Part shown: piece after piece, positions 11,871 to 57,000 of the stretch
How positions within the stretch are numbered: the stretch's first letter is position 1
How the letters are laid out: the number at the start of each line of letters is the position of its first letter
Source of the DNA: Siphlonurus alternatus
Lineage: Eukaryota > Arthropoda > Insecta > Ephemeroptera > Siphlonuridae
NCBI GenBank assembly: GCA_949825025.1
Contig: OX463780.1
Span: 38,668,979-38,732,978 of the forward strand
Direction of reading: 5' to 3'
Length of the DNA stretch: 64,000 nt
Notes under the pieces: generated by a model
Database searches by the model: none
What the model was told of the DNA's origin: nothing
What the model saw: only the letters and a program-made list of their open reading frames with translations
Made by a program: the position numbers and the translations under genes

Positions 11871-11874
11871 AAAC

Positions 11875-11883
11875 ACTCTTTCC
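11875..11883 (-). promoter_or_regulatory. Purine-rich histone downstream element (U7 snRNA-binding type)
   Basis: On the minus strand GGAAAGAGT begins 12 nt after the 3' end of the histone stem-loop. In replication-dependent histone pre-mRNAs a purine-rich element about 10-20 nt past the stem-loop base-pairs with U7 snRNA to direct cleavage between the two. Spacing and composition fit that role. The assignment is by position and motif only. Confidence 0.7.
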
Positions 11884-11895
11884 GAAAAACATGGT

Positions 11896-11911
11896 GGCCC
11901 TGAAAAGGGCC
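11896..11911 (-). terminator. Histone mRNA 3'-end stem-loop
   Basis: Read on the minus strand this is GGCCCTTTTCAGGGCC: a perfect 6-bp stem (GGCCCT/AGGGCC) closing the four-base loop TTTC, followed by ACCA. It matches the invariant hairpin of metazoan replication-dependent histone mRNAs that is bound by SLBP and replaces the poly(A) tail. It lies 58 nt after the stop codon of the H2B-like gene, inside the normal range. A chance match to stem, loop, position and downstream element together is very unlikely. Confidence 0.92.
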
Positions 11912-11969
11912 TTTTAATAATTCACTCCCTGTTATGGGGTGTTAGACAGGGCCTGGGGGCCGGATGGAC

Positions 11970-12479
11970 TTAACGGTACCAACGTTTAGACTGCTTCCTA
12001 CAGCTGCAGTATGGATCCGGACCGAGCGAGTCGAGGGCCTCCCTGGCCACATGACCAGCCTCTGTACGTCGCTCATCGGAGGTCACGAGGAGGTGGAAGG
12101 CAGTCTCCAGGTCAGCCACGTATAAGGTTTTGCGGCCCACGAACCTCATGGCGACGCTTGCTTCGGCACACAGTCTGTCCATCAGACCATGCAGGAGGTC
12201 TTCCATCACGTTCTTGGTTGCCGTGGAAAGTTGCTCATTTCTGTACTGACATTGCAAAACGCGCTTGAGGTGGGACGCGAAGAGCGGTTTATCCGCAGAC
12301 CTCCTCTTTGATCTGGTAGTCGCATGATCACCACAGCCATGATATCGACAGCACCGGGTTCCTCGGCAGGGTGCGGCTTTGCTCTTCACCTTGCTGGAAG
12401 GCTTGTTCTTGAGCCTTGTGGTCGCAGGCCGGGGCGCACCTCCTGCTCGAGATTTTTCTTGAACCGTTTTTTCTTGCAT
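11970..12479 (-). CDS. Divergent histone H2B variant with a Cys-rich tail (169 residues, intronless)
   Basis: Residues about 64-152 align without gaps to the histone H2B fold. Helix 1 is KPLFASHLKRVL, helix 2 runs from LSTATKNVM through the diagnostic AEAS (about residues 84-108), helix 3 follows at ADLETAFHLL, and a C-terminal helix lies at about 134-152. A canonical H2B is about 123-126 residues; this one is longer. It has a 63-residue basic tail containing a CRGTRCCRYHGCGDH cluster and an extra C-terminal stretch ending CSCRKQSKRWYR. It contains 8 cysteines (38, 43, 44, 49, 77, 104, 158, 160), whereas ordinary H2B has essentially none. The ATG at 12479 is the first after an in-frame TAA 36 bases upstream. 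No intron is needed. The frame is GC-rich against AT-rich flanks. The histone stem-loop downstream implies S-phase-type, non-polyadenylated mRNA. A germline or sperm role is inference; a decayed H2B copy is less likely because the frame and 3' signals are intact. Confidence 0.85.
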   Translation of the reverse strand: MQEKTVQEKSRAGGAPRPATTRLKNKPSSKVKSKAAPCRGTRCCRYHGCGDHATTRSKRRSADKPLFASHLKRVLQCQYRNEQLSTATKNVMEDLLHGLMDRLCAEASVAMRFVGRKTLYVADLETAFHLLVTSDERRTEAGHVAREALDSLGPDPYCSCRKQSKRWYR

Positions 12480-15400
12480 TCTTTGAACTTTGATTTCAAA
12501 AATACCATCAACTTAGAGAATAATTTAATTATTCACCTGCTGAAGTCGGTTGATTTTTGTATTGTTGTTTAACTTAAGCATAATTTATCAACCTGTTGTT
12601 AGAATTTTTAAACAAAAAAAGAATTTAACGAACTTTTAAAATTAATTTTATGTTATAAAATGCCCATATTGATGTATATTTTTAAAAAAAATATTACATT
12701 AAATGCTTTATATTAAAATTTAAAAAATATATTTTATATTTTTTTTTGTTATTTTTTACTGCCGATTTGAATCAAAGTATTGTTTTCAATACATAAAAAC
12801 GGTCACAATTTATAAATAACATGTTACAACACACATGCACGTATAAAGCGGTTAGCTGTAATGCATTGTGATACTGTACTTACAAAATATGGCAGTCAAT
12901 ATTAAAAATTTAAATTTAGCAGCTATGGAGCCTTCATTTTGTGGTGTCCCCATCATCTTCACCACCATCTACGTCAAAAAAAAAAAAACTCGAAATCGCT
13001 TTTTCGTCATTAAAGTTAATCTTTAGAGGATGATAATTAAGATCTTAATTCAAAATAAGAATACCAATGAGTGGGGGTAGGAGATGCTTTCAAATTAATA
13101 GCTTCAATATAGCTACCCATCAGAAAAAGTCAAGCTTTCTAATATGGTGGCTTACGGAGAACATTTTATCACACCTCTGGTGAACACTTAAATCAAGTGT
13201 TACTTGAAACATCTAGTTACAGATCTTGCACCTCATTTTTACCATAAATGCAGCCACAAAATAACACATAAATTAATAATTATACTTTTTACATATAATG
13301 ATGTATAACGTTTACTTTGTAATATTATAAAACTACAAATTTGTGTCTCTAAATTAACATTAGTGCCATTTCATTGCATAAATTTAATATTAAAATAAAC
13401 TTAAAGTAAAAAAGTATTTTATTAAATTTATCTATTCCATTATGTTCTCTTGATTTGATTTGGGTCACACTATTTTATAACAAATCCAATTTACATTTTG
13501 TAATCTAGTTTGTACTCCCCATAGAGTTATCCTTGGAAATTAACGTCATCTAATATTGTTTCATGGAGAAGCTAAAAAGAACAAAAATCATACAAGACCA
13601 CCGTGTATGAAATTTCTAATTATTAAAATGTAACACAGACCATTAATTTTTTAATACTGTTCATTAAAAAGAGGTTGTCAAGTTTTATAATCACTTTATA
13701 ATTAAATTATTTTTTAACAAAGAGGAGTTGGAGGGTGTATTAAACTTATCTGTTACAGCTGTACTAAATAGTTAAATAGGTTTAGCAATACTTTAATAAT
13801 TCCAGAAGAAAAAAAATATTATATAAAGCATATTATATAACTTCTCCTTATAACCGGTATTTTAATAAATTAATATTACTTTGAAGAATCCATGTAAAAT
13901 TATTACAATGGAGCATTAAAAAACTAAAATGTTGTGATTTATACATTAATTTCGTTTAAACAAATTTCTCATGTATAAACAATTAGTTGAATTGTAAATT
14001 TAAAATAAAATAATAACATTTAGCGGCTTCATGAATTTTATAATATTCAGTATGAGGAACATGAAATTATTAATCAATTGCCTCCTTATTTTTGAAAATC
14101 TCAATATTTCCATTTTGCGCTTTTATATATACCAGCGTTGATGATGTAAACAATAACAATAAACCGTGATGTCATACAGGAGCATAATAACGCATATTAT
14201 AGCTTGCATAATAAAGTTTTGTACTCTGCACTACAGCATTACCAACACTACAGTACATACAAGGAAGCTCGTAAAAAAATAGATGGTGTCAAGACAAAAG
14301 CACTTAAGAACTAACTGTACTTAACCGTTACATCTGGAGATTATAGTTAGAGGGATGTACAGTATATATCATTATTATCATACTTTTATAATTTACCAAA
14401 ATTTAGTAAAACCACATTATTAAAAATAAACCAATAAAGTTTCTTTATAATTCACAGTACAGATTCTTAACTACAGATTACCAGAGTCAAGCATTGCTTT
14501 TTCATAACATTCTATCATATTTATATTATGATATATGTACTTATAGTCATGCATCTACAGAATTATAGTTCACACGTGGTCATGCAAACTTGTTGCACTT
14601 ATTGTTAGTGGTTTAAATGCTGATTTTAATGTTAACACTTAATTCTGCAAACTTTCTAATTAAATTAAATCAGACCATTATAAACATATCATCAATTTGA
14701 TATCACTCAGCTTGTATTATCAGTGATTGTCATCATTTTTAGTTGATAAAAAGCTCATATAACGGCACAGACAATTTAGCTAGAGTCAGCAAGTCAGATA
14801 TGGTAATATCTATTCACTAAATTCATCATTGTTTGTTTTATTTTTTATTTTATAACAAAAAAATCACGAAAATATATTATTATCTTCAACACTAACAAGC
14901 AAAAAAAAAAAAAAAAAGTAAAAGTAAAAAAAGTTACTCGACCGGGAAAAAAAAAAACTCCTTCAGTGTAGGTCGAACCGCTGTACTTTCTTGCTCGAGA
15001 AGTTGCATACGTTACAGGGTGTTAAAATAGTAAGTTTCATGTGCTTCTTGTAACACTTTAACATGTACTATATTTCAATGAGTTAAAAGACTATAGCAAT
15101 TTTGGTGCAGTGCGTATAATATATACACAAAATCTTATTTATTTTCAGCACAACTCACATGCAACTGTATTATATTGTATTATATTACAGAGTGCATAAT
15201 AATCATAACCATGATAAAGAGAAATTTAAATTTGATTTAATATTATAACATTATACTGAAGTAAACGTAAAAAGCTCAGGACTTTAAATTTTCTCATTTA
15301 AAAACTTTATTAACTTTATAGGAAAATGATTTTATTACAATTTCTTTCCGAATCAATAATTATCTGTTCGAGTTTTAACATGATTTACATATTTCCTTTA

Positions 15401-25239: not shown

Positions 25240-25656
25240 TTTTTTTATTTTTTTTTTATTTTTTTTTTAATCAAACCCTATTGGGTACTTTTATTTACTA
25301 ATTACATACTACTTTGAAACCCCGAACCTTCCGAAACCCTAACTTGAGCGTTTCGCGGGCTCTTCTGGAACGGGGCCGGCCACGGCCTTGCAAATCCATC
25401 CCCGCATTTGCCTGCGGCTGAGGGAAACGTGGAAACCTCAGCCAAGATGGACGCTACAGCTTTTGTCAATGAACCGGAAGTGCAATGGTCCAAAGCCAGG
25501 GGAACCACATGGTGGAAAAGCGCAACGTTTTACCCCTGGGTGGGAAACGTGGTTTTTGTTGAAAATGGTCACCCATCCAACTACTAACCACGCGTGGCGT
25601 TGTTTGACTTCGGTGATCTGACGAGACCCGGTCAAGCGCACTGCGCCACACCTCCA
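25240..25656 (-). mobile_element. 5S rRNA-derived SINE (SINE3-like), about 417 bp
   Basis: Read on the minus strand, bases 25656 down to about 25566 resemble 5S rRNA. They include TCTCGTCAGATCACCGAAGT (the A-box/intermediate region) and, further on, GGTTAGTAGTTGGATGGGTG, the 5S C-box. These are the internal RNA polymerase III control regions. A non-5S body of about 290 bp follows, ending in an A-rich tail (T-rich on plus, 25240-25270). The whole is flanked by an 8-bp direct repeat ATCATTAT (25232-25239 and 25657-25664), the signature of target-primed insertion. Open frames crossing it are not genes. It lies about 340 bp upstream of the SLC22 start codon. A retroposed 5S pseudogene fused to unrelated sequence is the alternative. 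Confidence 0.85.
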
Positions 25657-25994: not shown

Positions 25995-28900
25995 ATGGCA
26001 GATATCGACTTTGATGCAGTTCTAAGTCAGGTTAGTACTAATAAAAATATTAACCATCATAAATGAAATTTTACAAAGTCAGCGTATATTTTTTTTATTA
26101 TCACATTACAGCATTTTTTCATCTTTGATTTTTAAAGCAAAAGTATACGATCAGTTATAAATTTGATTGTAAAATATTTAATGATACGTTTTTATTTGCG
26201 CTCTTGGCAGTGCATAATAATGCGGTGTTATTAGAACCGCAATAAAGCTATTATATTATATATATATATATGTGTGTCCTTGATATTGATATGTTTTTAT
26301 CATACGTATATCAACGGAGAATTAAGTAGTAGTAATATACGTACTATTATAATAATAATATGAGTCATTTTAATGAATTTAAAAATAAATCCTAGTATTT
26401 TTTTATGGTATGATAATTTGAAATTAACAGATAAAAAAAATATTTAGGATTTAGAGTTGCAGCCTTTTGATAAATAAAAATTTTATAAAATTTAAATTAC
26501 ATAAATATACAAATATTTATAAGTATACAAATTATGAATATTCAATAAGGCTTGCGCTATCACTTCTTGTACATCTTATTAATTAAGTGGCGGTACACAG
26601 CTTGCGTGCCTGCATGTACAAAAATTGGTGTTTGTGTTGACCACCGTGTTGCTTCACGGCTATAGATTTAACATCATTTCCATACGGTGAGATTACACCT
26701 GACGTTTCCTGAAAGATAACAAACGCAAAACAAGCATTTCATGCAATGCTATAACAGAATTAAATGTTAATAGTTTTAAATTAAGTACAAACAAATTATG
26801 ACATAAAAGTATTACAAAAATATTTATTTGACATTAATTAATTCAAATATACTGTATTACTGTATTGAATAATATTATATTGTTTAAAAAAAAATAATAT
26901 AAACCATCTTAAAGAACAGAAAGCATACTCCTGATGACGGCGAACTTATCTCAAACTTCTTTAATTCCATTATCAGAGTGTATGACCATATGCCCCTTAT
27001 AATCTCTAATGGCTCTGTAATACTATATAATTCACAATTTGGATACTGACGTCAAAAATCTATCATATTCGTAATCCACACTTTCCGCACTCGATCGATC
27101 TTTTATGTCCAAGTACAGTATGTAGTATGTACATAAATAAATCGGGTACAGAAAGTGTTCACTAGTAATTCAGGGGATTAGAAAATATTATGAATGTGGC
27201 AGATCGGTGAGCGGGGCCGCTACCAGAACCGCCTGTACTTCATGCTGTGCATCCCCGCCGCACTACCTGCCGTCTTCCTCGCCTTCAATCAGGTGAGTTA
27301 ACCTGAGGAACAACCCTGAGAACGTCCACCTTGGATAGTGTCCTTAGTATGAGTATACCCTCTTATTTATACATAAAACGCATATACAGGGTAATATAAA
27401 TTATAATATACGTATATGTATATAAATATTATGCAGTCATTCTGCATGAGCTTATTGTTATTTACATTTTCTTCTCAAAGCTGGTAGTACTGTACATAAT
27501 GCAATTTTTCCTTAATATCCCTTAAGAAAACTTCAACTGTACAGTTTGTTTGTATAGAGATGAAATTTTCTTGCAGGTAAAATTGTATCGTCTAATAGAA
27601 GTTTAAAAAAAAACATTATGAACACTAAAAATATACAATTTAAAAAAAAACATGTTCTTCGTATTATTTTTAAATTCTTAGTATATTTTTATGTAGATAT
27701 TTAATTTATGTTTACCAAAAAATATAATAAGTATATTCAGTGATAAATACACGAACAAGATAAAACATAGCTCTGTCTCATTTGATCAAATTACATAATT
27801 TGTTCCACTTGTGTCAATCTAGCTGTTTGCCTAATAACTATAAATAGACATCAGATACAAAAACTTAATTTTTATACAAGCCAAATTAATGCTAGTTTAG
27901 TAACAATGAAATCAATATTTCATGCAGATATATTGTTGGTAAGTGCAGCAATGGGGAAAAAATATATATATATATATAAATTATAATTTTATTCATTAAT
28001 ATAAATTACATTGAATAAAATTATATGATACATAATCATATAAATATACATACGTATAATTATGTATGTATATTGTACGTAAAGAAGCGCGTGTATCAAA
28101 CATGTACTGTACGTGTTTCGTCGATGCTTGTCCATATAATTCTGTTATCTCCTATCACTCGGCCAGAGAATGTTTATACATCACGTAAGGTGAAATGTTT
28201 CCGGAAATCCCGGGGAGATGCGAGATAACTCTCTGTAGGTTATCAAGTCATATTATCATCTCATCACTTGCTATTATCTCGAGTGCCTGTGCATGGTAAC
28301 AACACTGAACTTGAATATGTCGTCAAGGGAAAGTCACATCGTTGTTTAATTCTAAGAGATTTCATTCTATATTCGCGTAAAAGACGCTGGTTCAGACTTT
28401 AGAATGAGTTGGTCATAAAATTCAACATTTTCATATTTTGAAAATAATTTTTATGCTTGGGTTTTGTCTATTTAAAGTCACAAAAAAGCAGGAATCCTTC
28501 ATTTTTTTTTTTTTTTTTACATAAAATAGCTAAATAAGTATATATTATACAATACATCAAACAATTCATTTTCATTTTTAACTTAAAACAAAACGATTGA
28601 AAAGTCACATTCAGTAAATAATATTTCTTGGTGATAGGGATTCATTTTCAATATCACATTAATTAATTAGAAAAAAATACTTATTCGTCCAATTAAAACC
28701 TTCTGTGACGGTGCAGCTAATGTCTCAAATTGTGTGTACTATAGGTGTTCGTATCGGCCACCCCTGCCCACTGGTGTCGGGTGCCTGAACTAGACACCAT
28801 GCTTGGTCCCGAGGACGTGCGTGCCGCGGCTGTGCCCTTCACGCTGCTCTCGGACGGTTCGCGCGAGTACAGTCGCTGTGAGATGTACGACGTCAACTTC

Positions 28901-31900
28901 ACGGCGCTGCTGCTGCAGGGGATCGTGGGGGCCGCCCTCGAACCCGACTCGTCGTGGAACAGAACGGCCTGCAGGAACGGATGGCACTACGACAGAACCA
29001 ACTACGACGAAACTCTCGTCACCGAGGTACTCAAATAATTGAAATGCATCCTGAACATCTAGCCTTTAAGCATCCAAATAGAACGGGTTAACTCAGCAGC
29101 ATGAGGCTAATCAGATTTAATGCTGAACAATTTGCCTAGCCTCAAGGGGATACGATAAAGATACAAACATGTTAATTTTTTTACACTGCATTCAAATAAT
29201 AAAATTAGATAATCACTGGTTTAGATTTTCTCATGCATGTATTTAATTATTTTTGACCGGAATGCCAATAATTCACACCCCTGTAAATAAGCTCCTGACA
29301 ACATTGAGGGCTGTCTTCATGTCCCCAGCTGGACTTGGTGTGTGACAAGTCGTGGTGGACGGCAACCTCGACCACGTGCTTCTGCATCGGGTCACTCATC
29401 GGCAACGTGCTCTGCGGCATCATCGGAGACAGGTGAATGATAACATAATCATCACATTGTAACAAAATCAAGTGCAAGCATAAGTGTTAATCTCAAGCTA
29501 ATTAAGTCAAGTTTAATCAAGCGATAAATCTTTAGTTAATATCTGCTATTTTTTACTATGATTCAGTGTATGGAACTACATTTCTGTATTATATAAAATA
29601 AAATTCATAAAATAAAATTCATAAAATAAATATATACAGAGCTCATTATAATTATTTTTGTTAATCATAAAGACACGGGAACTTTCAATTATTTAAAGAC
29701 TGCAATGTACTCGTACTATACATGATATTCAAGTAAGAAAAAGAAAATTCACGAAATTTAAATTTTAATTATATTTTTATTTATTCATTTTTTTTTTTTT
29801 TACAAATTCAATTTGTCATAATTTTCCAGTACATGCCACATAATTAATATACAATGCTATCAAGCTCACTTAATAGTTGACAGTCCAACCTAAACTACCG
29901 ATGACTTCCTATAGACTGGGCCGGCGTCCCGCCTTCCTGTGCACCGTTTGCTGGCACGTTGTGTTCTCCATCGCCACGGCCTTCTCGCCTGACTACTTCA
30001 CGTACACGATCCTTCGCTCACTCAACGCTCTGGTCTTCCCCGCCATCTTCCAGGTGCCGTTCGTTCTTGGTAAGATTTTTGAAGCACCCGGAACTCCCCA
30101 TGGAGAGTTGCATGCACGGAACTTTTCCCTTACACACGAATGGTGATTTAAATGCCTACAAAACAATATTAATAATGTTCATTTTTTTCCAAAATATAGG
30201 ATAGTTAAAAAAAATTAATTAGATGATGATCAGAAACTGCCATATTATCTCGAGTATTATATTCTTGTTTCCTAATTTAAATCGAGTAGCTGAAAAGAAA
30301 GTGCTGTTGCAGCGTTGGAGCTGATGGGTCCGAAGCAACGCACGTACGCCGGCATGATGGTGTGCGTGTTCTTCTCCATGGCCCTGATGCTCCTGGCGCT
30401 GCTCACGCTCGTGCTGAGGGACTGGTTCTCTCTGCTCGTCGCCACCTCCACACCCTTCGTCTTCCTTTTAGGGTAACACTTAGTTCCATATTAGTACTGA
30501 ATATATCATATGGTAATTTTGAGTAAAATACAGCTGATTGAAATTTAATTCTGCCATATTTTTTTCTATATTCTGTTCCAATACAAAAACATTTTGCTTC
30601 ATGATTATTTTACTAAAAATGCTTTTGTTGGTAATAATGTACATATCCTTTACAGAATACAATTACATAATTAGCAGTACATCATACTATTTTCTATTTT
30701 TGTTAACTTAAACTTAATTAATTAGCCTGAGTTTGCAAGAACAACTTACGAGATATTTCTCGAAAAATAACTATAACTATATACTGACATTGAGTATACT
30801 CTAGAACCAAACCAGCAATATTATTTTACTTAACCAAGGTTCACTTTAATTAATAGTAATTAAGCTAAACCTTGCTGAGATTGAGCCGGTTTTGATTCTA
30901 TAAATGACTCAATTAGCACCATGACATGTCCACAGATACTACTGGATCATCCCAGAGTCCCCGCGCTGGCTGCTCAGCAAAAACCGCGTGGCTGAGGCGG
31001 AGGTCATCGTACAGCGCATGGCAAAGGTCAACGGTCACCCGGTTCCACCAAACTTTCTTCAGAACATACAGGTAATAGATAAGAGCATTGACATACGTTG
31101 CAGCCAAAGTTAATGAGTTACACGCGCACATTTTATTTTATTTCAATTTTTATTTAGCGCAAAATGTAACTGAAATATGATATTCTTTCCTTGTCATTAT
31201 AATCAATTTTCTGCATGTTTTCTTGCTTATGAGAGCTTCATGTCATAGGGTTACATTGTTGGAAGTCAATCATTTCCAAAATGTGACAGTAAGCATTGTC
31301 TGATGACAGCGAGAGAGGGCAAAGCTGACGCCCGCCCCGCCCCCTCGTGATGAGAAGATGAACGCGACGCCCCTGGACATGATGAAACGGCCTCTCCTGC
31401 GACGCACCTTCCTCATCATCACGCTGGACTGGGTGGCGAACGCCGTGGTATACAGCGGCCTCAACTACAACTCAGGCAACCTGGGGGTGAGCGACCAGAA
31501 GGCCTTCATGCTGGGAGCCATGGTTGAGCTGTTCAGCGTCCTCTGCTCGTGGTGGGCCATGGACCGTTGGGGGCGCCGAGCCATCGTCTGCGGCTCCATG
31601 CTCTTCGGGGGACTCGCCTGCGTCTCGTGTGGACTCGTCCCAGATGGTAAGCTCAAGTTCAAATCAGTGTGGTGTTTGGTGTGGGAATCCAGCCTCGTCT
31701 CACTTTAAATTTCACTTGCATTAGACATATCCGCTTTTTAATATTTAACGCATGAAAATAATTCAAATCATTGCTATTTCAATAATGCGATGAATAAAAG
31801 AGATTTAAAATGAGACTTTTTCTCCTAATAATATCTAAATAATATTATAACACGTAAACAGCCAGTATTCCAATTTTTCTTTTAATTTTCGCTTACTATC

Positions 31901-33203
31901 GTTCCTTATTTCTTGCTAGAAACTTGTACATATATACAATAAATTAATTAATTTAAAACATCACGTTTCAAATTTACATTGTAATCAAAGTTATTGTATC
32001 CAAGTCAATGGCAAGGTGACAAAAACAATCTTTCAAAAATTGTAAGCACAAATTGTGACCACAGGCGCAGTGTGGGCTACTGTCACGCTCGCAATGGTGG
32101 GGCGGTTTGGTATCTCTGCGTCATACGCCGTGTTCTACGTGTTCGTGGGGGAGCTGCTGCCCACCGTGGTGCGCAGTCAGTCGATGGCGCTCGGCAGTTT
32201 CGTGGCCAACTTCGGTCTGCTCGGCTTCCCCTCCATCGTGCACCTCGTAAGTAATGCGTGACGTGACGACAGGGGCGGAGTGGGCCACGGTGGCGCTCGC
32301 CATGGTCGGCAGGGCCGGCATCTCCGCCTCGTACTCGGTCTTCTACGTATTCGCGGCTGAAATCCTACCGACACAAGTGCGAAACCAAGCTATGGCACTC
32401 AGCAGTTTCGTCGCTGACGTCGGGCTACTGGCCTTCCCAATCATTGTGCATCTTGTAAGTATGGCGTGATTTATATGCACAATGGGTGAGTCTATTTTTT
32501 TTTTTGGAAATAATAGTAAAATTTATATAACTTAATTTTAATAGAAACTAATAAATTTTTATTTAAACCATGAACCTATACACTTGCTTTGCTATTTTTT
32601 TTATTAATTACAATTTTACAATTATGATTAAGCTATTTCTAGTGTCAACTCTCGTAAATATAAAGTATAAGCCTGCAGAAAATATTAAATTCATATTTTA
32701 CAAAGATATATGCTTGGAGACTTAAACGCTTGCAGTCCGAGAAATGTTTAATAAATTATTAATAAATCATTTTGATTATCTTAAGACAGTGAATCATTTA
32801 AAAAATAAGATTTTTTTCCTATAGACAAAATAAAATTCAACAATAGCTGCCAACTATTTTCTTAATATTAATATTTATTATGTAAGGATAATATAAGGAG
32901 TTTGTTTAGTGCTATTATATTTATGACTTGAATACTTGCATTGCTCTCATGATTCAGGGAAAACTTGAATAACCTATAATGTCCGTGTTCCAGGCCGTGT
33001 ACAACCGCGTGCTACCGCTGCTGGTGTTCGGAGCCCTGTCCCTGAGTGGGGCCCTGGCCTCTGCGATGCTACCTGAGACGTTGGGACTGCCGCTGCCGCA
33101 GACCCTGGATGACGGGGAGACGATGCACAAGAAGTCGCGCCAGATGCATCAGGAACAGACCATGTGCAGCTGTCTCCCGGGAAAGAGGGCTGGGCTCATC
33201 TGA
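25995..33203 (+). CDS. SLC22-family organic cation transporter-like protein, complete, 10 exon positions, 563 residues
   Basis: Exons: 25995-26030, 27203-27292, 28745-29026, 29329-29432, 29915-30069, 30313-30472, 30936-31071, 31310-31646, then 32065-32246 or 32273-32454, then 32994-33203. All junctions are GT..AG and phases agree. The product is a 12-helix plasma-membrane major-facilitator transporter. Visible hallmarks are an N-terminal GExGRYQ motif and a large first extracellular loop (exon 3) with Cys residues and N-glycosylation sites NFT and NRT. The LDLVCDK motif precedes helix 2, and the MFS signature DRLGRRP spans the exon 4/5 junction. YYWIIPESPRWL follows helix 6, DRWGRR lies between helices 8 and 9, and LPET follows helix 12. 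Length matches the family (about 550-560). An in-frame TAA directly precedes the ATG. Substrate is unknown; carnitine, carcinine or monoamine-like cations are possible from the family. Exon 9 exists in two alternative versions. Confidence 0.93.
27477..27605 (+). mobile_element. Degenerate MITE copy in SLC22 intron 2
   Basis: Shares AAACTTCAACT, GTTTGTTTGTAT and GAGATGAAATTTTCTTG, in the same order and spacing, with the better-preserved element at 40486-40628. Terminal repeats have decayed (GCTGGTAGTAC on the left, AAATTGTATCGTCTAATA on the right). Confidence 0.65.
32065..32246 (+). CDS. Alternative exon 9A of the SLC22 gene
   Basis: The exon has 182 nt, starting in phase 1 and ending in phase 0, and encodes residues 434-494. 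It covers transmembrane helices 10-11 with the family motif ExxPTxxR (here ELLPTVVR). It is preceded by ACCACAG and followed by GTAAGT. Including both 9A and 9B would shift the frame because each is 3n+2 long. Residue 481, the position equivalent to OCT1 Asp475, is Asn in this version. Confidence 0.9.
32273..32454 (+). CDS. Alternative exon 9B of the SLC22 gene
   Basis: The exon has 182 nt in the same phases as 9A, and 46 of 61 encoded residues are identical to 9A. It is preceded by ACGACAG and followed by GTAAGT. Only 26 nt separate it from 9A, and this gap contains 9A's donor, two TGAC branch-like motifs and 9B's acceptor. Retention of the gap hits an in-frame TGA at its fifth codon. Residue 481 is Asp, as in cation-selective OCTs. 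Confidence 0.9.
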
Positions 33204-34960: not shown

Positions 34961-35145
34961 CAGGCGCGGATCCAAGGGGGGGGCGATGGGGGCGATCGCC
35001 CCCCCCCCCAAAAGGCCCCAAAATACATTGAAGGTATTACCACCCCCCACCCATCGCCCCCTCCCACCCCAAAATTTAACATTGCGGGATAGGGCACCGC
35101 CCTCCCCCCCCCCCCCCCCAAAGCCACGGGCTGGATCCGCCCCTG
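34961..35145. mobile_element. hAT-type MITE (185 bp) with 8-bp target duplication
   Basis: Ends are CAGGCGCGGATCCA (left) and TGGATCCGCCCCTG (right): imperfect 14-bp terminal inverted repeats. They are flanked by the direct repeat TTTTACAC (34953-34960 and 35146-35153). An 8-bp duplication with CAGGGGCGGATCC-like ends is characteristic of hAT-superfamily non-autonomous elements. The interior is poly-C/poly-G rich; open frames through it are artefacts. Confidence 0.88.
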
Positions 35146-36041: not shown

Positions 36042-39000
36042 CTGTAAGATCAAGAACATATACCCAAGTATATATAGGTACATTGAAATATATAAAAAAA
36101 CATGTAGAAGTTAATAATAAAAGAGGGTCAATTTTAGAATTGCAGGCCCTGTGAACTGTAAATCACATTATACATGAGCGCAAATAATTGCATAATATAC
36201 AGTATATTTGCAAGCACAGCACCAAACTCTCGATTTCTCGTCCCAGTTTTAGTGGTCTAATTGCAGAAACAGGACAGTTGCAATGAGATCTCCTTACCTG
36301 ATCCTCCGGCATTCTGTCCCACACGTGGGGTCTGCTGGCGCTTCGAAACATGAGGGCCGCCCTTAGCGCCACGGCGAGGAGTAGAACTACGCTGAGAGCA
36401 GAGCCGGCAAACACCAGCGCCACCAACGTCTTCTCCTCTATAACAATTAAAGTAGAGTGAGCGATTGCATTTTTTTTAATATTTTATTTTCTAAAAATAG
36501 TTTAAGCTGCCCTCTATTGAGAAATGAAAACCAAAAAATTCCAACTCAAATAGTTTCACCACAAAAAATTACCAAAGTTGGTGTTTCGGAGGCCTTTTAT
36601 GTGCAGCCTTATGGAACATAAAACCGCGTTTTACTCCAACATTTTCTGAACTATGCTACCATTTAAAAAATACCTACGTAATCTGTGATGAATTCTTTAA
36701 TGGATTTTTTTTTAAGTTTTTGCGGGTTAATTCCCATAAGGATTTTCATGATTTGTTTTCCAAGAAAACGACCCCGTAAAAAAAATTTTTATTTTAAAAT
36801 TCATTAAAGAATTCATCATAGATTACGTAAGTATTTTTTAAATGGTACCATAGTTCAGAAAAAGTTGGAGTAAAACGCGGTTTTATGTTCCATAAGGCTG
36901 CACGTTAAAGGCCTCCGAAACACCAACTTTGGGAATTTTTTGTGGTGAAACTATTTGAGATGGAATTTTTTGGTTTTCATTTCTCAATAGAGGGTAGCTT
37001 AAGGCTTAACCTGAGAAATTTGGACGAAAAATTCGCTACAACAGATTTTCTTCAAATTAATTTGGTGGAATCACAACAATCGTCAAATTAGCTCTGAATT
37101 TTTTCGGAATTTTTTAACCGTTGGTTTAATTATAATTAATTTATTTAAATGAGAATTTTGTATCCTTCCAATGTTAAATTTGTTAATTAGCATTGCAAAA
37201 AAACTATACAACAGATTCTTTTACTTTTTTTTTTTACTAAAACCTAATTTTTTACACTATTTTTCTGAATTGTTTTCATATATTTTGAACCGTGGCGATG
37301 ATCGTTTCCTGTATGTGATGAGAAATGTGGCAACGTTCTCAAGGACTGTTGTCACCACCCCCTCCTAAAAATTTATGCGTATTCCAATGCAAACAGTGTT
37401 GCCACTATAGCCACGCCTCTTGACCTTGACAGACAAATTCTCAGGTTATACCTTAAACTATTTTTAAAAAATAAAATATTAAAAAAAAAATGAACTCGCT
37501 CACTCTACTTTAAATAACTTGGTGAACATTTGAGGCTCACTTTACAATTTTAACGAAAAGATATAAAAAAAAAGTGCATGGAATGTGTAATTTAAAAAAC
37601 TGTGCAATCAAAATTCTCACAATATCTATCTATGTTATTTATGCATTTTAAGATAATTAGTTATTAATTACATTTTTCTCTGCATGCATGCATGTTCATT
37701 AATACTCCTTTTGGATGTAAGGTGTAACTTTAAAATTAAATTCAAAAGAAAGAAGAAATTACATATCAGTGTATTTTTACTATTTTTAGTTTCAACAAGC
37801 GCTTGAATATCATGTTATTTGAAATTAATTGCTTCTGGAAGGAGATTGACTTAAAGGAGGAACGAGTCTGATGGATGACTTTTGGCAATTTTTTTTTTCA
37901 AGATAAAATAATTTATTTTTCCATGCTCACTATAATATAAGTCTATATTCGATGTAAGTATGTTTTACTGTGTAATGGGGAGTAAAACGTTGCAGTAGAA
38001 TTTCATTGTTATTTTACCCTTTGTTGTTTCGTTCTCATCGCCGTAGACATCAGGCCCTACGTCTACTCCTGGAGTGTTTGGTCCCACCTCGGGAGCTGGC
38101 GCTGCTGTGCCGGGGGCAGCTGCGGGGCCTGGAGCAGGGCCGGGAGCGGGGCCACCATCTGGAACAGGGCCTCCGGGCAAAGCTGGTCCAGGAGCAGATG
38201 TAACTCCAGGGGTGGCGCCCTCGACCCCAGGACCAGCTGGTGGGTTAGGGACTGGAAAAGGTACAGAAGGTCCTTCAGGAATTGCAGGTGAACCGGTTCC
38301 AGGGTCAGGTTTTCCAGGTACGGTTCCATCGGCCTTGGGACCAGCTGGTGAGTTTCCAGGACCTTCAGAAGCTCCAGGTAAAGCAGTCGCAGGCCCGGTA
38401 ATTGTTACTCCAGGGATTGCACCTTCAACCCCAGGACCAGTTGGTGGGTTTGGAACTGGAACAAGGACAGAAGGACCTTCAGGAATTGCAGGTGAACCGG
38501 TTCCAGAGGCAGGTTTTTCAGTTATGGTTCCATCAACCTTGGGACCAGCTGGTGAGTTTGCAGAGCCTTCAGAAGCTCCAGGTAAAGCAGGTACGAGGGT
38601 TGTCACTCCAGGAGTGGAAATCTCAACCCCAGAACCAGCTGGTGGGTTTGGAATTGGAAGGAGAGGAGGACCTTCAGGAATGACTGGTGAACCGATTCCA
38701 GGAGCACTTGGTGGCTTCACAGGGCTTTCAGAGACTCCGGGTAAAGCAGGTGTGGGGGTTGTTACTCCAGGGGTAGCTACTTCGACCCCAGGACGAGTTG
38801 GTGGGTTCGGGACTGGAAGAGGGACAGAAGGACCGTTTGGAATTGCAGGTGAACCGATTTCAGGGGCGTTTGGTGGGTTCGCAGAGCTTTCAGAAGCTCC
38901 AGAGAAAGCTGGCTTGGAGACTGTCACTCCAGGGATAGTAACTTCAACCTTGGGACTACTTGTGGGTGGATTGGGAACGGGTACAAGAGGACTCTCAGGA

Positions 39001-42000
39001 GCTGAGATTTCTGGGATAGTTGGTACAGGGGTAGATACTTTCGTGTTACTGGGAGCATTGGAGGATGGCGCACCTGCTACGTCAGGTGTAGCTTGAGCAG
39101 GCACGTTCAGCCGTTCACCGTCCATACCACGCAGCTCGAGGCGACCGAAACGCAGCAGTCGCGTGAGTTCCATCACCGCTCGCTTCACCAGCTCCTCGCG
39201 TCCCCACTCCAGCCGCACCGTTATCGTGCCTGCACAGTGCACAACCGTGACGTCACAACATGGAGTTGCATGATCAAGTGTGGAGCAAATTACTAATGCA
39301 ATTAACCATTAGTTTCATTAAGAATGTCTTTATTATATGGTATTATCCAACGTTCAAAATTACAATACTAATTTTTATAATATTTTCAATTCAATGTAAT
39401 AAAATTATGTTTTTTTAATTACTGACATTATTTGTAACGAGCATTCAGGAATATACGCTTAATCTAAAAATTTAATTTAATTAAGATGCTTAAATACATT
39501 TGTGGATATATTTCAACATTGAAGCTTCCAGTTGTAGTTAAACGGTCCTTCCTTAATTTTAAATAATGATTATATTAATTATTTATTCTCTGGTAAGCAA
39601 GTCAATAAAGTAATTTCTAGAAAATGGAAGAAGGACTATTTGGAACTACAGCATATAGACTCGATCATTATTACTAGCCGATTCTACAACTCTCGTGACG
39701 TCAAAATGTCTGCTATGTTCGCACCTCTCTCCAAAGTAGTCTCTGTCACGGCTTCCTCCGGAAGACGGGCCTGCTGAGCGATCTGCCGCCGCATGCGCAG
39801 CTCCAGCTCAGCCACATTGCCCGACGGCACTCCCAGCACACTGCGTACATCACGTGCGCGTTAGTGACACAATTAAATGTTATAAATAATGACTGAACAA
39901 ATTAAAAGTGCCTTACTTGAAGGTAAGAACGTGCGTCGTGAGTCGTGATGGCACGGGTCTGCCTTTCCCGTCCTGAACTAACCACTCCTGCTTGTCTCTC
40001 GAGGGGGGCGGGGTGGGACCTTCCTGCAGTAGGGGCAATTGGGGAACGGGGGACGGTGGTAACCACCCCATCGTGGGCAGAGGAGGGGGTGTGGTAGCCA
40101 GTACAGTGCTGAAACAAACGATTTCATTTTATTTTTTTGCAAAATGACAGTATGGAGGTACGTGGTATTAATAATTTAAAAAATATTGCTTATGAAAATA
40201 TGGCTAATTAATTTGATACGTTAAAATATTATATTGCAGCTGAAAATAGATAAATGACGAGATTTTACATTGCAACAGTGTTTGGGAACCTCGATATCTC
40301 AATACAACGAGCGTGGTATACCTGAAGTGTCCACCTGAAGCGCGGCAATCACAGTTCACGTATGGCTGTTGGGACGATGCCGCTTTCATAGTGCGACATG
40401 CCTCCGTGTCCCACTTGTCTGACTGCCAGCGAGCACACTGCAGAGAAGTTTAATTTTCAGCGCAGTTTTCAGCAATAAAACTTAAAGCCGGTATTACACG
40501 ATACAATTTCTCTAATTATTGCACACAATTTTTCCTTACAAAAAAACTTCAACTCCATTTGTTTGTATGGAGATGAAATTTTCTTGAAAGGAAAAAGTGT
40601 ATGCAAAATTGTATCATGTAATACAGGCTTAACGTTTGTACACCGACTCAATACTGAATTAAATTATTTTAAAGTAGTTTTTGTCTACGCACCTGTACAG
40701 AGTAACCCTCTACAAGTGACATGTTTGTGACGACTGGAAGTCGCAGAGAGATAGTAGTAACTTCATCGAGTCCTCCCAAAAACTGCACTTCCACCACACG
40801 ACTACGTCTGCTAATAAAGAGAACAGAAATTAAGACTAGAATAAAATAAAATCGGTAAATTTCTAGAGAGAGACAGTTCTCACCTCTCTACGAGGTTCCA
40901 GGACTTATTGCCCATAAACTCTCTGTCCGCTAGCGAGGTCGCAGCCACGCACATTGCAGACTTGGCGTTCATGACCACAATCTGAAACACAAGGGTAGTC
41001 CTGAATATATTATACATTTATGTTAACATTTCATTGATATATTAATTAAATAAGAAGTATACATTATATATTATTTATATTATTCAACCCCCACTTCGGA
41101 TCGGACTCACGTAAGCCGGTAGAGTAGACTCATCATGCCCGGTCGATGGGGCGAAGGGCGGCAGTTTGAGCTCCACGTTCTGCGAAGTCACCGCGGCCAC
41201 GGCGAGGCTGGCCACTCGAGAGCTGGTAGCCACCATGCCAGTACCATCCAGACCCGCGCACAGACCGCGCACGTACATCTGCAGGTCACTGCGCATGTGT
41301 ACTCGCTCTGTCTGCGCGACGTCACCAAGCACAGAGTCCAATATCAGGTGCTCGGAGACACGAAGTAATACCTCTACCTGGAAATATTTTACTGCATGTA
41401 CAGGGGCTATATAACCATGTAACAATTTTATTTATTATATATAGCTATTTAGGGATAGATTAGGGAGGAGACGATTATATTATATTAGTGATATTACAAC
41501 CCTCTCATATATTACAAAATTATGTGGGGGGTAGCGGAGTAGCAGTTTTCAACGCAGGACGTTCGTTGTGCTACAAAAAATAGTTACTTGCATTTTCTGG
41601 GTACCGGAACATCGAAAAATAAGTACTAGCAGATCTAAAATTAGATAATAAAAATAAAAATTCAATGCTTAGTCTCACCTCGTGCAGTGATAATGGTCTC
41701 ACGGCTGCCTCCTCTCGCTTACGTCGCGGTCTCGGCCACATGGGGGGACCCATACCACAACCTCCAATCACTCGTCGAGCTGGAGCGCGGGTCTTGGTTT
41801 CTGTAATGGAGAATCACAGTGTTAGTCTGAACAAGACCATATACCAACTATAGGAAAAAGAAGTATGTTTGCATTGCTTGATCGTAATTTAATTTAGAAA
41901 AGCTGTAATATTTATCAAAACTCTGGTAAAAAAAATCATTAGTAGTCTCACCTCTTGCTCTTAGTGCATCAAGAACCTTCTGCTTGAAGGACGCCACGGT

Positions 42001-51000: not shown

Positions 51001-54000
51001 TTTTACAGGGATGATAACGGGGTGACGTACCATGGTGGCGCCACGCTTGAGGAAGCACTTGGCCCCGGCCACTGTGGTGACCTTCAGTCCGGCCCCCGTC
51101 AGAGACAGCGACGTGGTGCGGTCGCCACACCGGTCCAGCAGAGACGGCACGGCGCGGGTCACGCTCATGCAGCCTGCACACGTGGACAACATACACTTTA
51201 ATATAATTAGGATAATGTATGCTACAGTTATATATTTTCAGATCATTAAGAGTGCTTTCCATTAAGCATGAACATTAATTAATGATGATATACTACTCCA
51301 TAGATACCTCTGTGAGTTTGCAATGTTTGCAATTAATTTTACATAAATACGTAATATTTTAAATATAACACTTTTAAAAGAACGTATACTTTTTAATGAG
51401 CAATTAATGAAAGATGTATACAGAACACCTATGGCATCTATACATATATACTGTATCTATATTATATATATTTATTTAACTGGGTTTGCTTCCCAGAGTA
51501 TGAGGAGACATATACAAAATTTGCAATTTTATTTATTGTTCACTGAAGGGGAGGGAGGACGACTCACGGTCTCGGGTGAGGTCATCCTTGCCCAGACAAC
51601 GGCCGCAGTTGTCCCTGGAAAGCGCCGGGTCTCCGTCACAGCCGGCCCGGCATCCGCGTGTCTCCTGGCCGGCACACGCCCCGCACGTGTTCATGCCAGA
51701 GTCCGCGGGCCGCTTGCTGCTGCCTCCCACGCACATCCCGCACCTGCGAGCACGTGGGTCTTGTAGGTAAGTATTAGCACGCTGAACATTTTTTGTCCTT
51801 CCTGGGTACAGTATATTATATGGGTATTTGCAAATGAGTAAATGGGTATTAATTTATATAACAATTATAATATTAATTTAAATACAAATATACTTGAATA
51901 ATTAATATTGTATTTATTCCATTTTGTTTTTTCCGTTCACCAATTTGTTTTGCAATTTGCAATACAATTAAATTACAGAATTATACAATAATCTAAAATC
52001 ACACTAATTCGTACTAAATTATTATTTAATATGTAAGTAAATTAAAATTTTTGGTTCATTTTATATGCTGAATCATCAAGGCCGCGGATAATATTGTATG
52101 AGTTCATAAATAAACTCTTTACCTATACTCAAACATATAATAATATTAATAATATATTTTAGCATGGTATGCAATTTATGATAATAATTTTTATATATTT
52201 ATTTTAACACTACAAGTAGAGCACGGACACAAAGCCATACTCACAAGTTGATGAAAGCTCCGGGCAGTCCATTGCACTGTTTGACCGAGCTGGCCGGCGC
52301 GTCGTCACACTCGACGCAAACATACTCCTGCTCGTCATCTTCACGTGGCTGGGGCGAAGTCGTAGTCTTCGGGTCGGTCACTGGCGGCCGCGCAGTAGGA
52401 ACAAGCTTGTTGAGATTGGGGGACTGGCGGATGGACTCGGAGTCTGAGCCCCCGTCCTCATGACCCTCATCTACTGGTGCAGGTGCTCCCGGCTCTACTG
52501 ATGGGGATGGTGCATCTACTGGGGGATTGGGTGCAGGTGCGGAGGAGTCAGGAGGTTTAGATTCAGCAGGAGGATCTGACTTAGAAGGTTTTTCAGTGGT
52601 TCCTTTGTCACTGGGAGGGCCTTTTGGAGTGTCTTCTTTTGGGGCTACAGGAGTTTCTAGTTCTTTGGGAGTATCTGGTTTCTTGGGCTCCTCTCCGGGC
52701 TTATCAGAACCTTTCTCTGGTGGTTTAGTGGCTTCTGAACCTCCAGGTAAAGCGGCAGGAGGTTCCGAAACTTTGGGAGTTTCTGATGGTTTCTTGGGCT
52801 CCTCGCCAGGTTTATCAGAACTTTTCTCTGGTGGTTTAGTGACATTTGAAACTCCAGGTGAAGCTGCAGGAGGTTGTTCTTCTTTGGGAATTTCTGATGG
52901 TTTCTTGGGCTCCTCGCCAGGTTTATCAGAACTTTTCTCTGGTGGTTTAGTGACATTAGAAACTCCAGGTGAAGCTGCAGGAGACTCTGGACTTGCCGGG
53001 TCGGGCTTCTTCTCCCCCTCACTAGGTGGCTTGTTTTCACCTGGAGCCGGAGCACCGTCATGTGCTGGTGCTGGTGAAGGGTTTGCCGGGGCTGGTTTAA
53101 GATCATCAGCAGGCTTGGTTACAGAGCCTTCACCTGATGGTGAACCACCAGGAGTTGCTGTTGGCCCTTTAGGTGGGGTTGATTCTGCCGGGGATGGTTT
53201 AGCTCCTTCTAAAGGAGGAACAGCTGCCCCTGGAGTATCTTGACCTTTTGGTACAGTATCTGGTTTTGTTGCCGTTTCTTCTCCAGCTGGTACTGAAGTA
53301 TCAGGACCCTTTGGGTCAGTAGGTTTTGGTTGCTCTTCAGCAGGTCCGCTTGGAATTTTTGGCGTCTCGCCGGAAGGAGGTTGCGGTGATACAACTGCAG
53401 TATTTGCGTTCTCGCTACCGGGAGCAGGACCAGCGGGAGACCCAGGACCTGATGGGGGTGGTGATACGGGGTTCTCTACAGCAGGGGGGTTAATGGGGGA
53501 GTCAGGAGATGCGGTACCTCTGGGAAATTCCACTGGCGGGGGTTTTGGTGACGAATTATCAGGAGGATGAGGTTGCTTCTCGGGATCGGAAGGTGGTTTT
53601 GGTTCTGCAAGAGCCGGGCTACTCTCTCCCCCAGGAGACGCAGGAGCAGGCTTTGTGTCTCCAGCAGGAGTGCCTCCACCGTCCTGCTTTTCTGGAGGCC
53701 CTGTTTGAGCACACCGTCACGGGGCTAGATATTCTCTCAGTCGAATAAAGCGTGAGAAAATATATGCTGAAGTGTGTTGAAATGACACGGCTATATAATG
53801 TGTTTTTGTGATTATATTAATAAAATATTAAGATATTGTACTATTTATTATGATTTTCATGACATTTAAATATTTTAAGTGCATACAACATTGCGGTGTA
53901 AGCAGTGTTGCAATCAATGATGGCAAAAATAATAAAAAAATCATATTCATTACACCATGTAATATTATGGAACGCACTAACACAACACATTGGCAATTAC

Positions 54001-57000
54001 ACTGTAAAAACAAAAATGCATTTTTTTTTTCTGAAATTGAAAAATGCATATATATTTATATTAATTTTGCATGCATGAAATATATCTAATAAAAAGCTGC
54101 CCTTTCTACACTTGTATTATCATAACTGATATGTAACTCAACTAATATATCTAGGTTTTTTGAAGAAATGTATTATTATCATGTTTAGACGAATCCTTTA
54201 CCCTGAATTGAATAATAAATCAACTGTAACAAAAAACATCACTGTGTTATCGTAATAGAAACTATAAATGCTTATCGATTTGTTTTCATTATGTATATAA
54301 TTAAGCTGAATTATTCTGCGAGCTTGGAATGGGATGGATGGATTTTAGGCTGGATGATATCTATACATGCCATTACGTGAGTGCATTAAGTGATTAGTAC
54401 CCTAGAAGGCATTTTTGTTTTACATGTAAAAGCAATGAAGCTAAAGATCGAGATATTTCATTTCAACACAACAAAAATTATGAATATACACCACAACAAA
54501 ATCCATTCTATGTTGTATATTTTTGTTATTATGTAATTTTTCTATTCAAAAAGCTTTTATATGCAATCCATAAATTATGACATGCAAATACAAGAAATTA
54601 ACTATATACGCAGGTGAAATAGCGGAATAGCTGGTGCGATGTTAGACAAACAAAACGCAGGTGTATTTCAAATTTCAATGCATGGAATCTCTATGGCAGA
54701 CTTTTTATTAGTTGATTTGATTTTTTTAGCTCAAGAAAATTCAGTGCATTTCAGTGAAATAATTATACTTGCTAACATTTTTTTAAATGACGCATAAAAC
54801 AATGTGCAGACACTCTATAGGAGGCTGGAAAGAGGATATCACATCTCAAGAGTTTTTAATAATATATTAATATTATAAATGTGTCACATGTCATAAATCA
54901 TAAAAATGCCATAGAAATTTCAGCGGAGACGAAACAAAAATAGTCTAGTTCTTTTTTTTAGGCAATTTTTGGCCAATTTTCGACTTACCCGATGGAGTTG
55001 TAATTTTTGAAGGATCAGATGTAGGTTTTGTCACTGGATTTTGAGGTTTTGTATTTTCTGGAGGTTTCAAAGATGGGTCAACGGGTTTAGGAGCCGGATC
55101 GACAGGTTTGGTTTCTGAACCAGGCTGCTTTGAGACTGGAGGAGTGACGGTCGTTGTGGTAGTGGTTGTTTTTTCTTCTTCCATAGGTTTAACAGAAGGG
55201 TCTACAGGCTTTGGTCCTGTATCTACAGGATCAGGTGGTTTTACGGAAGGGTCTACAGGTTTTGGTCCAACATCAGGTGGTTTCATAGAAGGTTCTACAG
55301 GTTTTGGTCCAATATCAGGTGGTTTTACGGAAGGGTCTACAGGTTTTGGTCCAATATCAGGTGGTTTCATAGAAGGGTCTACAGGTTTTGGTCCAATATC
55401 AGGTGGTTTTACGGAAGGGTCTACAGGTTTTGGTCCAATATCAGGTGGTTTCATAGAAGGGTCTACAGGTTTTGGTCCAATATCAGGTGGTTTTACGGAA
55501 GGGTCTACAGGTTTTGGTTCAATATCAGGTGGTTTTACGGAAGGGTCTACAGGTTTTGGTCCAATATCAGGTGGTTTCATAGAAGGTTCTACAGGTTTTG
55601 GTCCAACATCAGGTGGTTTCATGGAAGGATCCTCAGGTTTTGGTTCAACATCAGGTTGCTGGGTGGCAACAACAGGAGGTTTCACGTCAGGTGGATTAAG
55701 AGGGGGGTCTAGTGTTGTATCTCCTCCAGTACCAGGGTTCTCTTCCATGCATCGGTTTGTATCCTCGTTATATTTCTGGGAAGCATGTGTAATAAACAAC
55801 GTAAGTTCTTTCTCCACACCATTAATTATTATACTGTATAAGTATATTATATAATTTAAAATTATCATTCATGATCAACATGTCTGTTCATAATAATATA
55901 CGATTCATGAATCAATAATCAGATATATAAATTTATTTAATTAGGAAAATCAAATAATGACGATTATGCCGAGATGAATGAAGGGATGAATGACTAAATG
56001 TACGCAGTACAAAAAACAAAACAAAACAAAATTAGGTGGGGGGGGGGGGGAAGAGTTTTTTTTCCATTTTTATTTTTTCAACCGTTTGAAATCTAAATAA
56101 TAAAAAAATACAAAAAAATACTAATTGTCTTAATAAAAAGAGATTTTTTAAAAGTCGAAAAATATACTTTTGCTACACACCAATGTTAACTGGATGCATA
56201 CTGTCAATTATAATAAGTAAGTGCATGTGAATTTTTCTGCAACTTTACGGAATATTTAAAAAAAAAATAATAAAGGTTTTGTAAAAAAGAAATACAATTT
56301 TCACATGAAGGATGGTTGTAAAATTTCTATCTCGTGTAACGTATTAAATAAGTGAAGTATAATTGTTAGTAATTTAAATAAGTTCTCTATAATATGTATT
56401 TACAGACCATAGAGGCCAAAATCTATACAATATATATGTGACTTTCTTCAACTTTATTATGTATAATATATATTATAATGATGAATAAAAAAAAAGAATG
56501 AGAGTAAAAAATACACAAATACAATTAAATAAAACAAAATACACAAGCCTGATTTGTATTAATATTATATATTGAACATAATATATATTTTAAAGAGCAC
56601 ATGCAGTTCATCAGTAAATAATTAATGTACTAGATGCCTTAATTATAAATTATATAGACCAATAAGTTTCGTAATTTAAAGAGCTCTATACAGCTGAAAG
56701 AAAATTAATATAATCTACCAAGAATTAAAATTAGGTATAATAATAATATGAAAAAATAAAATTATGAAATTTAACACAGATAGACATCACAATAAAAAGT
56801 TATGTATGATACTTACAAAAGAGGGGTTACACAGTGGAGTATTGGAATCTTGAGCGTAAATAGAAAATATCATATTCAATAACAGAAGACCAACTATCAT
56901 GTGACAACATTTGAGAGAGATTGGTCGGCAACTGGTGCTTCTATTGCCGACATATCCATGAGCAGCATTACGCCAAGGAGGAGCTCGGTACCGAGACATG

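Follow-up and report, generated by a model that had tools for sequence, protein, structure and literature searches.

We found that an SLC22 gene in the window, the whole 64-kb stretch of Siphlonurus alternatus DNA analyzed here, carries exon 9 in two adjoining versions, 9A and 9B, which are separated by 26 nt. Mutually exclusive splicing of the two copies by crowding of their splice signals is, with high probability, the best explanation of this arrangement. Mutual exclusivity is predicted because the 9A donor and the 9B branch-point region would likely have to occupy one common stretch of 26 bases and because the reading frame is maintained with one copy alone; that it is obligate, as the original prediction had it, we infer from the sequence. 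By alignment, exon 9 codes for TM10 and TM11; the earlier description of the exon pair gave neither this placement nor the fact that the copies diverge at a site occupied by Asp in OCTs and by Arg in OATs.

The gene has 10 exons on the + strand at 25995-33203, with exon 9 in two versions. Constitutive exons 1-4 (25995-26030, 27203-27292, 28745-29026, and 29329-29432) and 5-8 (29915-30069, 30313-30472, 30936-31071, and 31310-31646) assemble into an open reading frame that is collinear with SLC22 proteins, and exon 8 ends in phase 1 at the donor ATG/GTAAGC. Exon 10 (32994-33203), the common 3' exon with the stop codon, continues the frame from either 9A or 9B, and the assembled gene codes for 563 aa with either copy. 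The introns of the modelled gene are 238-1452 nt long.

The gene product is an SLC22 small-molecule transporter, judging by the names and sequences of its relatives. Both isoforms belong by sequence to the MFS / Sugar_tr group, with scores for Sugar_tr (PF00083) of 101.9 bits for isoform A and 108.7 bits for isoform B (Pfam cut-off 22.3). Among PDB sequences, the best 26 of 41 matches to isoform B were SLC22 proteins headed by OCTN2, OCT2, and OCT3, the OCTN2 match (6.8e-82) spanning residues 5-535. These two lines of evidence bear out the SLC22 identity first assigned to the gene. A homologue search scored 7998 candidates, of which 613 passed. Many of the best 120 of these 613 go by the name of an organic cation, carcinine, or beta-alanine transporter, and others are unnamed or hypothetical. 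One truncated protein (P0116) was left out of the 120, and the 119 homologues used below include a limpet protein (P0111, Patella vulgata) as well as unnamed proteins from metagenomes or transcripts. A separate observation is a 5S rRNA match on the opposite strand (25536-25654, - strand; 38.1 bits against a threshold of 38), which lies some 340 bases before the start codon of the SLC22 gene. It is perhaps a 5S-derived repeat or pseudogene.

The exon pair is confirmed as it was first described. Exon 9A (32065-32246, + strand) and exon 9B (32273-32454, + strand) are adjoining homologous exons of equal length and phase, as in a mutually exclusive pair. Each is 182 nt long and codes for residues 434-494, each is preceded by ACAG and followed by GTAAGT, and each is entered in phase 1 and left in phase 0. 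The copies have 126 of their 182 bases in common and agree in 46 of 61 residues, exactly as reported for the residues, lengths, and phases. The gap at 32247-32272 begins with the GTAAGT donor and finishes with the ACAG acceptor, again as predicted. It is made up of 15 + 1 + 10 nt, namely the 9A donor side (GTAAGTAATGCGTGA), one base, and the 9B acceptor side (GTGACGACAG). The 15 nt match the flank 3' of 9B at 13 positions, and 9 of the 10 nt match the flank 5' of 9A.

A repeat search that was given no exon information recovered a tandemly duplicated unit of 207 nt at a spacing of 208 nt, with a first copy at 32055-32261 and a second at 32263-32469 (+ strand), the copies being 71% identical. 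The tandem duplication proposed earlier holds. The unit had been put at about 208 bp with about 15 bases past the donor; this stands, with the addition that 10 nt of upstream intron are included along with the 15 nt of downstream intron. The gap and flanks would be the expected remains of one tandem duplication of a short unit. A longer duplicated unit followed by deletion within the gap would leave an identical appearance. No third copy of exon 9 was found within the 64-kb window at E 1e-3 (tblastn).

The reading frame survives only with exactly one copy of exon 9. Inclusion of 9A and 9B together shifts the frame and leads to a stop after 571 aa, omission of both shifts the frame with a stop after 460 aa, and retention of the gap gives a TGA after VSNA, at 498 aa. 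The frame logic originally put forward therefore stands in that double inclusion shifts the frame and gap retention gives a TGA. Stops in the last exon need not trigger nonsense-mediated decay (NMD), and NMD of transcripts with double inclusion or skipping is not assured, because both stops fall in the last exon.

The spacing of the two copies also argues against their being joined. Published surveys put the limit for joint use of a donor and a branch point at about 50 nt (PMC5740500, PMC7969005), and two exons with too short an intervening intron cannot be spliced together (PMC6071210). At 26 nt, the gap lies below this donor-to-branch-point threshold, in agreement with the earlier claim that it is too short for splicing 9A to 9B. 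Within 100 nt upstream of 9B, there are three matches to the branch-point pattern nTnAy, all of them in the gap (offsets -19, -12, and -7); this is about the chance number per 100 nt, and the 9B branch point is motif-predicted. The farthest of the three lies at the more usual branch-point distance. It is the A of the predicted motif GTAAT (32251-32255, + strand; branch A32254), 19 nt before 9B and at the 8th base of the 9A donor side. A branch point anywhere within the gap would be less than 50 nt from the 9A donor. We propose that U1 snRNP bound to the 9A donor (32247-32252) would exclude U2 snRNP from the likely 9B branch point A32254, and vice versa, so that exons would be joined as 8-9A-10 or 8-9B-10 and never as 9A-9B.

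The strength of the splice sites was compared within the gene and among paralogues. Over the six intron bases, the GTAAGT donors of 9A and 9B are the best of the gene's ten; over the nine-base consensus, two constitutive donors match at 8/9 positions versus 7/9 for the 9A and 9B donors. The acceptors contain 8/19 (9A) and 7/19 (9B) pyrimidines, and paralogue acceptors with AG at the same place (n = 12) contain 10-16 of 19. Within the gene itself, three of the eight constitutive acceptors do not exceed 9A in pyrimidine content (6, 6, and 8 of 19). The sites of 9A and 9B are not clearly weak or strong, because constitutive acceptors and donors rival them. The choice of exon would be left to regulation at the 3' splice sites, because the acceptors are pyrimidine-poor and the donors are perfect GTAAGT.

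We searched the genome for other copies of the exon and of the gene. A DNA search with 31900-33000, by a method that skips common words, found the locus itself as the sole match in the 455.7-Mb genome (102 contigs), in which the window occupies C3:38668979-38732978. With the exon-9B peptide, at least 19 exon-9-like places were found, comprising 9A, 9B, and 17 paralogous exons; this count is a lower bound, only the best candidates having been scored. Among these matches, 9A and 9B are the sole adjoining pair. The next closest two, more than 15 kb apart, lie in a group on contig C8 and probably belong to separate genes. That group (G000:C8:19477855-19602170; L055-L058, L060, and L068) contains six exon-9-like matches of other SLC22 genes within about 124 kb and is probably a tandem cluster of SLC22 paralogues. 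In a protein search of the genome (77 of 125 candidates scored), matches outside the gene reached at most 57% identity over short stretches. No retrocopy (fossil transcript) of the gene was seen among the matches listed in the DNA and protein genome searches.

All but one of the 17 paralogous exon-9 matches (L062) gave a local match, and residue 482 was readable in 15. Both splice sites were at the same position and in the same phase in 11 of the 16 readable matches, which makes exon 9 a long-standing unit of the family, duplicated in the present gene. The exon-9 borders were examined in 11 of the 12 paralogue stretches taken. Whereas the window gene has two copies of exon 9, the SLC22 paralogues examined in the genome show one each within the stretches taken, and no second copy was found there. 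A candidate second copy in paralogue L061 was rejected as a chance match (15 residues with a stop, E 0.12).

In a gene tree built without exon 9, the window gene groups with another mayfly, Ephemera danica (SH-aLRT 100). This tree was made by a quick method from 35 rows, which comprised 32 of the 119 homologues, the Ephemera danica protein split in two, and the window protein. The Ephemera danica protein (P0002, B566_EDAN016469) has 893 residues and fuses two tandem SLC22 gene copies, one of which is 62% identical to the window gene over 340 columns. Each fused copy has one exon-9 segment, and both segments have Asn at residue 482. The duplication is thus of a whole gene in Ephemera danica, in contrast to the exon duplication in the Siphlonurus alternatus window. 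In an exon tree of 24 homologues, the split Ephemera danica protein, and both window exons, 9A and 9B pair with weak support (72/71). An alternative tree in which 9A groups with Ephemera danica and without 9B is not rejected (p-AU 0.36).

Both copies look to have been kept as coding sequence. The differences between 9A and 9B fall on codon positions 1/2/3 as 11/8/37 (chi-square P = 1.2e-6), and the 61 codons divide into 31 with silent differences, 15 with amino acid changes, and 15 that are identical. The dN is 0.15, and synonymous sites are saturated (dS 6.1 by maximum likelihood, undefined by NG86). Free evolution of 9B would predict about 51 differences at codon positions 1 and 2, and 19 are seen (P = 2.5e-10, under Jukes-Cantor, with third positions assumed free and equal rates on both branches). 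There are no stops in 9B, which alone is weak evidence because 20% of neutral simulations are stop-free as well. The exons have a G+C content of 0.63 and 0.61, compared with 0.29 and 0.25 in the flanking introns.

These results bear on the possibility that only 9A is used and that 9B is a relic left by the duplication, silent or seldom included, which we consider unlikely. Such a relic would fit the slower evolution of 9A, whose end branch in the exon tree is 0.045 compared with 0.30 for 9B, and its closeness to the family: 9A shares up to 45 of 61 residues with homologues and 9B up to 38, and of 35 columns with a conservation of 90% or more, nine are altered in 9B and six in 9A. Copy 9A is the conservative, family-like one. 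Also consistent with a relic is that no 9B-like segment scored in the protein collection, where a search for a 9B-like exon in other species with isoform B residues 430-500 yielded 63 candidates but none at E <= 0.001; this negative is weak because the score required over 71 residues is high. However, the divergence of 9B is mostly synonymous, it has both splice sites with a GTAAGT donor, and it retains a GC-rich coding composition, besides the absence of stops and the rejection of unconstrained evolution under equal rates. Some of the changes in 9B are at near-fixed positions of the family, namely V468Q (V in 119 of 119 homologues) and L464I (L in 118 of 119). Given these changes, the 9B isoform could be a weaker transporter.

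Exclusivity could also arise from competing RNA structure (docker/selector pairs) or from U2/U12 incompatibility rather than from crowding, which appears very improbable here. In several genes, mutually exclusive exons are controlled by RNA structure (PMC6071210), but the local fold of 32180-32330 was no better than that of shuffled sequences (z = -0.18). Likewise, nothing stood out in pairing of the gap, the 9A acceptor, and the 9B donor with the flanking introns, for which at least 29 of 200 shuffles were as good in every case; these structure tests used one species and hence no covariation. As for U2/U12 incompatibility, all 10 of 10 donors are GT without the U12 donor pattern as generally known, and no sign of the minor spliceosome was found. 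That the short gap is an assembly artefact, produced by the collapse of two entire genes or of a longer intron, has a minimal chance of being true: the fused tandem copies of the Ephemera danica model indicate that gene-level duplication exists in the lineage, but collapse of near-identical repeats is unlikely because the copies are only 71% identical, and moreover the gap consists of both flanks plus one base and the locus lies within a contig of 50.2 Mb with a single match in the DNA search.

Under mutually exclusive splicing by crowding, isoforms A and B would differ at 15 residues, and the rest of the protein would be identical. In OAT1, TM10 contains Phe438, Asn439, and Glu447, TM11 contains Arg454 and Arg466, and the intracellular gate is formed by TM10 and TM11 with TM4 and TM5 (PMC10643130). 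By comparison with OAT1, the swap would replace TM10-TM11 and thus half of the cytoplasmic gate. The offset to OAT1 numbering is 16, taken from residues in a primer list that run without a gap across Phe438-Arg466 and slightly past either end (PMC10643130); beyond the stretch covered by the primers, for example at Lys431, it is extrapolated. The offset to human OCT1 is 8, from the alignment with PDB sequences. OCT1-3, OCTN2, OAT1, and the insect carcinine / beta-alanine transporters are of the same family and share TM10-TM11, and among the residues named, Arg447, Glu463, and Arg470, as well as Ser478, are retained in both isoforms. The changed residues were not enriched among the 9 positions named in two structure papers (2/9, P = 0.71); the two, 455 and 482, correspond to residues of OCT1 and OAT1 that are linked to substrate or charge. 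At position 455, isoform A has Ala and isoform B has Ser, where OCT1 has Gln447 and OAT1 has Asn439; OCT1 Gln447 contacts thiamine (PMC10567722).

The second changed site, residue 482, aligns with OCT1 Asp474 and OAT1 Arg466. The codon is AAC (Asn) in 9A (32208-32210, + strand) and GAC (Asp) in 9B (32416-32418, + strand), a difference of one base. Among the 119 homologues, the residue is G in 109, S in 8, R in 1 (the limpet), N in 1 (Ephemera danica), and D in none, and it is never Asp or Asn in the 15 readable paralogues of the genome. Asp482 is thus private to 9B among the arthropod relatives and paralogues examined. According to the published structural work, conservation of D474 is confined to OCTs, and most OATs and OCTNs have Arg instead; in OCT1, D474 pairs with Lys214 and is untouched by bound thiamine, metformin, and fenoterol in the structures described (PMC10567722). 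In our alignment, the position of Lys214 is Pro in the window protein. In rat Oct1, D475E led to a higher affinity for methylnicotinamide, TEA, and choline, with no change for MPP (PMC7559834).

Isoforms A and B would likely differ in what they carry. We suggest more tentatively that isoform B, with its Asp482, may favour organic cations. It is possible, though doubtful, that one insect transporter gene uses splicing to change its electrical preference, with Asp in 9B and neutral Asn in 9A at a TM11 site. If so, what vertebrates accomplish with separate genes for cation (Asp) and anion (Arg) carriers would here be accomplished by two exons that are 26 bases apart.

Exon pairs of this kind are already known. 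Those of alpha-tropomyosin and alpha-actinin are reportedly steric and mutually exclusive. The two insect exons of the Dscam exon 17 pair are said to be chosen by steric hindrance plus RNA structure, and that pair codes for a transmembrane segment, but Dscam is not a transporter. The steric pair formed by OGDH exons 4a and 4b is likewise unjoinable, with less than about 50 nt between donor and branch point; the human OGDH branch points are found 25-41 nt beyond the donor, in an intron longer than the gap described here (PMC7969005). Between 9A and 9B, by comparison, the entire space measures 26 nt and can hardly accommodate a separate pyrimidine tract. Among human clusters of mutually exclusive exons (MXEs), 57 of 629 (9%) have predicted steric interference by the same criterion of less than 50 bp from donor to branch point, and 377 (60%) have lengths not divisible by three (PMC5740500). 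Solute carriers named in that survey include SLC25A3 and SLC39A14 (PMC5740500), whereas the present pair is in an insect gene of the SLC22 family. Consistent with the original prediction, we found no report in the open-access literature of a mutually exclusive pair in an SLC22 gene.

If the two exons are used as predicted, the gene would amount to a natural experiment with two states of the SLC22 gating helices, in a family that includes many drug carriers. The 15 residues would change together, one of them at the site by which OCTs and OATs are told apart. The pair would also be an extreme case of steric exon exclusion, in which the 26-nt space makes the spacing rule testable by widening the gap.

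Several other features were observed elsewhere in the window. A histone 3' stem-loop (11871-11916, - strand; Rfam RF00032, 37.0 bits) lies just downstream of an ORF of 180 residues (11970-12512, - strand) that has a weak histone-fold match (PF00808, E 0.0017, 19 bits against a cut-off of 21.4). Together they are perhaps a strongly diverged histone gene of the H2B type. Long proline-rich ORFs were found on the - strand at 37965-39308, 52241-53716, and 54945-55868, the last of which contains tandem repeats such as PPDIGPKPVDPS. These ORFs lie amid what are perhaps exons of a large gene on the minus strand. A further six ORFs of lesser length at 35.6-49.9 kb, five on the minus strand and one on the plus strand, matched nothing in Pfam at E 0.01. 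Downstream of the SLC22 gene, in AT-rich surroundings, low-complexity sequence with runs of G and C is found at 34970-35130.
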